From positions 1-64,000 of the forward strand of contig JAODUO010001382.1 in the NCBI GenBank assembly GCA_025642075.2: DNA of 64,000 nucleotides. The letters are read 5' to 3'. This document shows positions 20,291-37,469 of the stretch, one piece after another. The position numbers and the translations under genes were made by a program. Every line of letters begins with the position of its first letter. Position 1 is the first letter of the stretch. The notes below the pieces were generated by a model that was given only the letters and a program-made list of their open reading frames with translations, did no database searches and was not told the DNA's origin. This DNA is from Ridgeia piscesae. Taxonomy: Eukaryota > Annelida > Polychaeta > Sabellida > Siboglinidae.

Positions 20291-20674
20291 ATGTGCACAG
20301 CGGCCACCGACCCGGCCGTGCGAATGGGCCACCTACACACACACGAACACGGCCACTGTTGCGACAGCCCGGAACACACCGAGGCCCTGGGCCACTACCA
20401 GAATGTCGTCAAATGCCAAATCGAGAAGATCCGCAACGCTTTTCTCGGCCGCCCAATGCAGCTGTCGCCGGTGGCCTCCATGGCGCCGTCGGCTGCGCCT
20501 TCCGGGGCGCCGTCGGGTGACTCCGGGCGGCGCGGGGCAGACAACGAGCTGAAGCACCTCATCGATGCGCTCATGCGGCTCATCGAGCGCTTCGCCAACT
20601 GGGACGAGGCGGCCGACGAACTCGTCGAGATCCGCGCTCGCCTCGACCGCTACGGCGCCGAGATGCGCGGGAAG
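20291..20674 (+). CDS. KASH gene exon 1 (residues 1-128)
   Basis: Start chosen at the first in-frame ATG (AAAAATGTGC); an open frame extends upstream but without ATG. The exon has a His-rich opening (HLHTHEHGHCC), a short helix, an Ala/Pro/Ser hinge (APSGAPSGDSG), then an amphipathic helix beginning DNELKHLIDALMRLI that runs to the donor GGGAAG|GTGAGA and continues in exon 2. The GC-rich exon stands out sharply from the AT-rich flank. Confidence 0.72.

Positions 20675-37469: not shown

Follow-up and report, generated by a model that had tools for sequence, protein, structure and literature searches.

The window analysed here, a 64,000-nucleotide stretch of a Ridgeia piscesae contig (GenBank JAODUO010001382.1, positions 1 to 64,000, forward strand), carries eight exons on its plus strand whose joined frame (20291–37469) encodes a predicted protein of 1,667 aa, together with a tandem duplication that repeats the terminal exon. 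Features at the locus, in window coordinates, are as follows.

20170..20175, +: TATA-like box (TATAAA), position only, from a motif scan; ~120 bp 5′ of the ATG
20291..20674, +: exon 1; ATG, His/Cys-rich N-terminus and start of a helical region (aa 1–128)
25887..26285, +: exon 2; helical segment (aa 129–261; AlphaFold2 mean pLDDT 57)
26518..28542, +: exon 3; Cys/His-rich repeats and TSR/SP-rich presumed disorder (aa 262–936)
29389..29627, +: exon 4; linker rich in Pro, Ser and Arg
30611..31062, +: exon 5; 41-residue helical repeats
31522..31793, +: exon 6; continuation of the helical repeats
32236..32445, +: exon 7; last part of the helical repeats
36447..37469, +: exon 8; Arg/Ser/Pro-rich stretch, membrane span, KASH-like tail (presumably luminal) and stop
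37326..37391, +: single membrane span, KVVQLMLVALFLLAVVAAHVVY; hydropathy maximum 2.6
37392..37466, +: 25-residue tail, KCREERWPVEFIQMLGLRHYGYPPV; 19 of 25 residues identical in the homologue P0001 (see below)
33832–34887 and 41176–42231, −: single-exon, intron-nested, antisense ORF for a rhodopsin-type GPCR (Pfam 7tm_1, E 9.9e-12 and 3.6e-10, respectively)
43778..44800, +: second copy of exon 8, from a tandem duplication 7.3 kb downstream; open, with the same tail

Gene model and duplicated exons

All seven introns are bounded by GT-AG and the phases match at every exon junction. The gene model is further supported by the difference in GC content between exons (0.62–0.70, with GC3 of 0.68–0.87) and introns (0.34–0.48). 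As the first in-frame ATG of exon 8 comes only at codon 153, the upstream exons are required. The original prediction had joined the eight exons into one frame, a proposal borne out by the splice borders, the phases, the length of the translated product and the GC contrast; all eight would be carried by one mRNA. Intron 7 is 4.0 kb long.

The terminal part of the gene is present twice: positions 33456–39111 and 40800–46441, with adjoining repeats, are 97.4% identical over 5,659 columns, and the duplicated unit contains exon 8, the GPCR ORF and a 61-bp minisatellite. Six codons differ between the two copies of exon 8 (two synonymously and four non-synonymously), none of them in the tail, and a search of the genome with the exon 8 protein returned two matches, both within the window. 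The duplication is recent; it may exist in the genome or have arisen in the assembly from two alleles, and in the former case the gene would have a choice of two terminal exons that close with an identical tail. At the other end of the gene, exon 1 recurs at the end of contig C1015, with four base differences, all synonymous. This copy (G000:C1015:332519-333835) is 96% identical to positions 19603–20924 of the window, which span the promoter and exon 1; comparison of the 7.5 kb 5′ of position 19603 with C1015 yielded a single 134-bp match at 78%. An allelic structural difference, a partial duplication or a misassembly could each account for it.

Elsewhere in the window, at about 50890–51025 on the minus strand, we saw by eye the stretch ..EYYIHRAGRTGRAGREGKC.., which we take to resemble motif VI of DEAD-box helicases; one ORF there, probably in another frame, had no Pfam match.

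The membrane span, the tail and its conservation

The protein has a single predicted membrane span: 14 hydropathy windows exceeded 1.3, all within the one C-terminal span, and no N-terminal span was found by hydropathy, an arrangement that would leave the N-terminus cytosolic and the tail luminal. Numbering the last residue as 0, the tail has Cys at −23 and ends in YPPV. Hydropathy and the translated frame thus confirm the span and 25-residue tail, with this cysteine and this ending, that had been claimed for the locus. Given the composition of exon 8 minus the tail, the chance of PP at −2/−1 together with Cys −23 is about 5e-5. Luminal tails of KASH proteins are described as 8–32 residues long in the portion of the literature available (PMC13200780), and the present protein, with one span in 1,667 aa, has a tail within that range.

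When the exon 8 protein was searched against 5.77 billion proteins (threshold E ≤ 1; 7,498 candidates scored), one match was found: P0001, a 317-aa protein encoded on a 371,690-bp ENA contig, which aligned over the whole exon (E 2.8e-63) with an identity of about 51%. We take P0001 to come from another species, since exon 8 has just the two window copies in this genome. Identity was unevenly distributed, at 128/293 positions in the cytosolic part (38 of them gapped), 11/22 in the span and 19/25 in the tail; the difference between tail and cytosolic part gave a Fisher p of 0.0028, or of 0.020 when the 38 gapped places were left out (128/255). Among the 13 other 25-residue blocks of exon 8, two, both cytosolic, came close to the tail with 17/25 identity each (126–150, and 276–300 at the edge of the span). 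Between the two tails (KCREERWPVEFIQMLGLRHYGYPPV in the window, KCHEEHWPTEFVQVLGLRHYGQPPV in P0001), Cys −23, Leu −10, Leu −8, Arg −7, His −6, Gly −4, Pro −2, Pro −1 and Val 0 are unchanged, so that PP at −2/−1 and Cys −23 are also kept in the P0001 genome, where the end reads QPPV rather than YPPV. Judged from these two sequences, the tail seems more strongly constrained than the remainder of exon 8 on average, as would be the case for a binding peptide. The P0001 exon also has Cys/His-rich stretches resembling those in exon 3.

A profile search of the tail against the KASH family, which the original prediction had named as a check, went against it. The Pfam KASH model (PF10541) gave no match up to E 10 to the protein, to exon 8 or to the tail; the tail was absent among the 21 matches to that model in the genome; and HHalign aligned only the four columns of GxPP between tail and KASH, with a probability of 0.5%. 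Neither a strict PPPX end nor Tyr −7 is present in the tail (YPPV or QPPV, with Arg −7), and its end reads xPPX, as does the LPPV of nesprin-4, PPPX being the form in most KASH proteins. In an anchored test, in which PPx was given, the end was fixed and five lengths were tried, the tail scored p 0.095, 0.018, 0.078, 0.39 and 0.25 over its last 8, 11, 14, 19 and 24 residues, 11 being the best length for this tail. KASH5, left out and put through the same test, scored p 0.167, 0.013, 0.128, 0.29 and 0.18, so that over the last 11 residues the tail (p 0.018) was about level with a left-out true KASH protein (p 0.013); the six other references, each left out, scored far better than the window tail (p at most 0.013). 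Shuffles that kept PPV gave p 0.03–0.46 against single nesprin tails (five tails), and 293 of 4,000 reached the tail's score with a small nesprin profile. The failure of KASH models on the tail is, however, tempered by the behaviour of a profile built from five nesprin-type tails, whose only PDB matches were chains of nesprin-1, -2 and -3, the true KASH4 and KASH5 chains going undetected.

Residue by residue, the tail shares with human nesprin-4 (KASH4; PDB 6r16, 6wmd) its length, Cys −23, Gly −4 and PPV (nesprin-4 ends GLPPV), a comparison that concerns the tails alone; in the upstream part of the tail, nesprin-4 has a CCSH zinc site in the published excerpt (PMC7800377), whereas the present protein has C[RH]EE[RH]WP. 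The KASH domains of nesprin-1, -2 and -3 have luminal tails of similar length with Cys −23 (−22 in nesprin-3), and nesprin-3 further shares Leu −10, Leu −8, Arg −7, Gly −4 and PP; unlike these three, the protein described here has no PF10541 match, no Tyr −7, no strict PPPX and no spectrin or CH match. KASH5, which ends PPPV, shares PPV, Leu −10 and Leu −8, but has Tyr at −6 where the tail has His; in the accessible part of the source its KASH domain is shorter and without Cys −23 (PMC6357990). In JAW1/LRMP (KASH6), the excerpted account places His at the hinge (H549 of 555, or −6) where other KASH proteins carry Tyr, and it is at this hinge residue only that we liken His −6 to it (PMC10827754). 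Caenorhabditis elegans ANC-1 has, by published description, Cys −23 as here; its anchoring is actin-dependent and needs Cys −23, while Tyr −7 is dispensable. In the same partial account, UNC-83 as well as KASH5 is without Cys −23, and the terminal KASH tetrapeptide is thought to initiate binding (PMC6357990).

The cytosolic part

The cytosolic part appears to be of non-nesprin type, as predicted: no CH or spectrin domain was matched by Pfam in the 1,667-aa protein, and all Pfam matches to the protein fell below the cut-off of their family. Of the 675 residues of exon 3, 39 are Cys and 47 are His; the exon contains five near-identical CPHN[TS] repeats, and Pfam matched nothing in it up to E 1. 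Seven TSR motifs were counted, six of them in exon 3 and the seventh in exon 8, with 0.9 expected in total.

The "seven helical repeats" of the earlier description were roughly right. Exons 5 to 7 show a clear period of 41 residues over ~7.6 units, with a mean self-score at a shift of 41 of 0.42 compared with −0.71 ± 0.24 over shifts of 5–129, and exon 5, used as a query against the genome, matched in three places: its own position and the repeats in exons 6 and 7. An AlphaFold2 model of exon 5, whose alignment had exons 6 and 7 as its only other rows, comprised four helices of 28–39 residues each (mean pLDDT 75), which would pack antiparallel. Helices were also modelled for exon 2, at low confidence. 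Residues 103–106, in exon 1, read NWDE, a stretch that we take to resemble a W-acidic kinesin-light-chain motif; the loose pattern occurs once, with 0.1 expected in shuffles.

Candidate SUN partner and possible role as a nuclear tether

The 21 matches to Pfam KASH in the genome (E ≤ 10) include three over the cut-off, one of them with three stops. The two clean nesprin-type ends read TPPF and SPPV, both with Cys −23; the first proline is therefore not required in this organism. The genome also encodes a SUN1/2-like domain (E 9.8e-65 against human SUN1), the exons of which, including the Cys-bearing one, were joined by eye. It keeps the STRC cysteine, presumably the equivalent of SUN2 C563, and reads Phe at one pocket residue that we take to be Tyr in human SUN2; this Phe-bearing SUN would also have to serve the nesprin-type tails. 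A third SUN-domain match in the genome (L004, G000:C1804:22596-22769; E 7.6e-10) looked by eye more like a mid-SUN (SUCO-type) protein than one of SUN1/2 type.

On these data we consider it likely that the predicted 1,667-aa protein represents a new, non-nesprin KASH family; its span would sit in the outer membrane of the nucleus, and its tail would reach into the SUN1/2-like protein of the same genome. Sequence likeness by itself is not proof of a KASH tail, and the case lies in the combination of conserved key places, topology and partner. The KASH domain of the original prediction accordingly stands in part: tail conservation, the nesprin-4-like GxPPV end with Cys −23 and a SUN domain in the same genome that keeps the partner cysteine speak for it, but its likeness to nesprin KASH domains proved weak.

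The span could instead anchor the protein in the ER, mitochondria or another membrane, with a tail that binds a non-SUN ligand and a coincidental PPV and Cys −23. The failure of the Pfam and HHalign KASH models on the tail and the similar scores of PPV-keeping shuffles fit such a reading, and a KASH5 variant is described, in the part of the report available, as localising to mitochondria (PMC8115505). We nevertheless think it unlikely, because two genomes jointly preserve Cys −23, Gly −4 and PPV, and because the end fits both nesprin-4 and the genome's own nesprin-type ends.

Somewhat less plausible is a division into two genes, in which exons 1–7, or 1–3, end elsewhere and exon 8 closes another transcript. 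The long intron 7 contains the antisense GPCR ORF and P0001 covers exon 8 only, as two genes would allow; against this, exon 8 is without an early in-frame start, exon 7 ends in the phase that exon 8 needs, TSR motifs occur in both exon 3 and exon 8 in excess of expectation, and the P0001 exon has stretches like those of exon 3. Still more doubtful is the reading that one of the known non-nesprin KASH proteins (KASH5, LRMP/IRAG or Klarsicht/UNC-83) has here an orthologue that diverged strongly: the cytoplasmic regions of known KASH proteins are highly variable in the excerpt available (PMC13200780) and His −6 resembles KASH6 (PMC10827754), yet no Pfam family exceeded its cut-off in the protein, and KASH5 and UNC-83 are without Cys −23 in the account cited above (PMC6357990).

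If the protein is indeed a KASH protein of a new family, its GxPPV end would insert into the pocket between SUN protomers and His −6 would fill the hinge place, where the majority of KASH ends carry Tyr and KASH6 carries His. Cys −23 would form a disulphide with a SUN cysteine; SUN2 C563 pairs with the KASH1 cysteine (PMC7800377), and Cys −23 can bond with SUN C563 (PMC6357990), in the portions of these papers available. As the tail has Cys −23 and is without Tyr −7, we infer that it belongs to a disulphide "anchor" class, and such a bond might make it a load-bearing, long-term anchor like ANC-1 rather than a transient mover like UNC-83 or KASH5. In the cytosol, close to the membrane, the 41-residue repeats would assemble into a bundle of helices, and the Cys/His-rich and TSR/SP-rich stretches could cross-link or bind metal and dock to the cytoskeleton under the control of phosphorylation. 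Our first guess at a cytoskeletal partner is microtubules, given that the searches found neither an actin-binding nor a spectrin domain and that the N-terminus has one NWDE stretch.

Unrelated cytosolic parts are a known trait of KASH proteins, and for that reason the protein would not make a new category. It may perhaps, though we hold this more tentatively than the KASH assignment itself, belong to an additional class of LINC linker confined to one animal lineage: a nuclear anchor locked by a disulphide, which works beside ordinary nesprins and does without their actin and spectrin modules, in favour of a helical-bundle spacer and a metal- or disulphide-crosslinked, Cys/His-rich cytoplasmic matrix. 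No such protein was found among the open-licence PMC papers listed on molluscs, lophotrochozoans and annelids, or in the titles and opening abstract lines of those listed on new or KASH-like proteins, which is weak evidence of absence. A conserved Cys −23/GxPPV tail on an unrelated cytosolic part makes the protein a directly testable candidate for a new SUN partner, and suggests that nuclear tethers may be made of non-nesprin parts in animals outside the usual models.

Among the other contigs, C3158 is mitochondrial and carries on one strand COX3-ND6-CYTB-ATP6-ND5-ND4L-ND4-presumed rRNA region-ND1-ND3-ND2-COX1-COX2 (genes named by eye, COX1 by Pfam), which we take to be the usual annelid order and which makes an annelid source likely. 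Several of its genes are frame-broken, perhaps through read errors, and between ATP6 and ND5 (L040, ~3100–3440) lies a long TATG-type microsatellite, unexpected in a mitochondrial genome.
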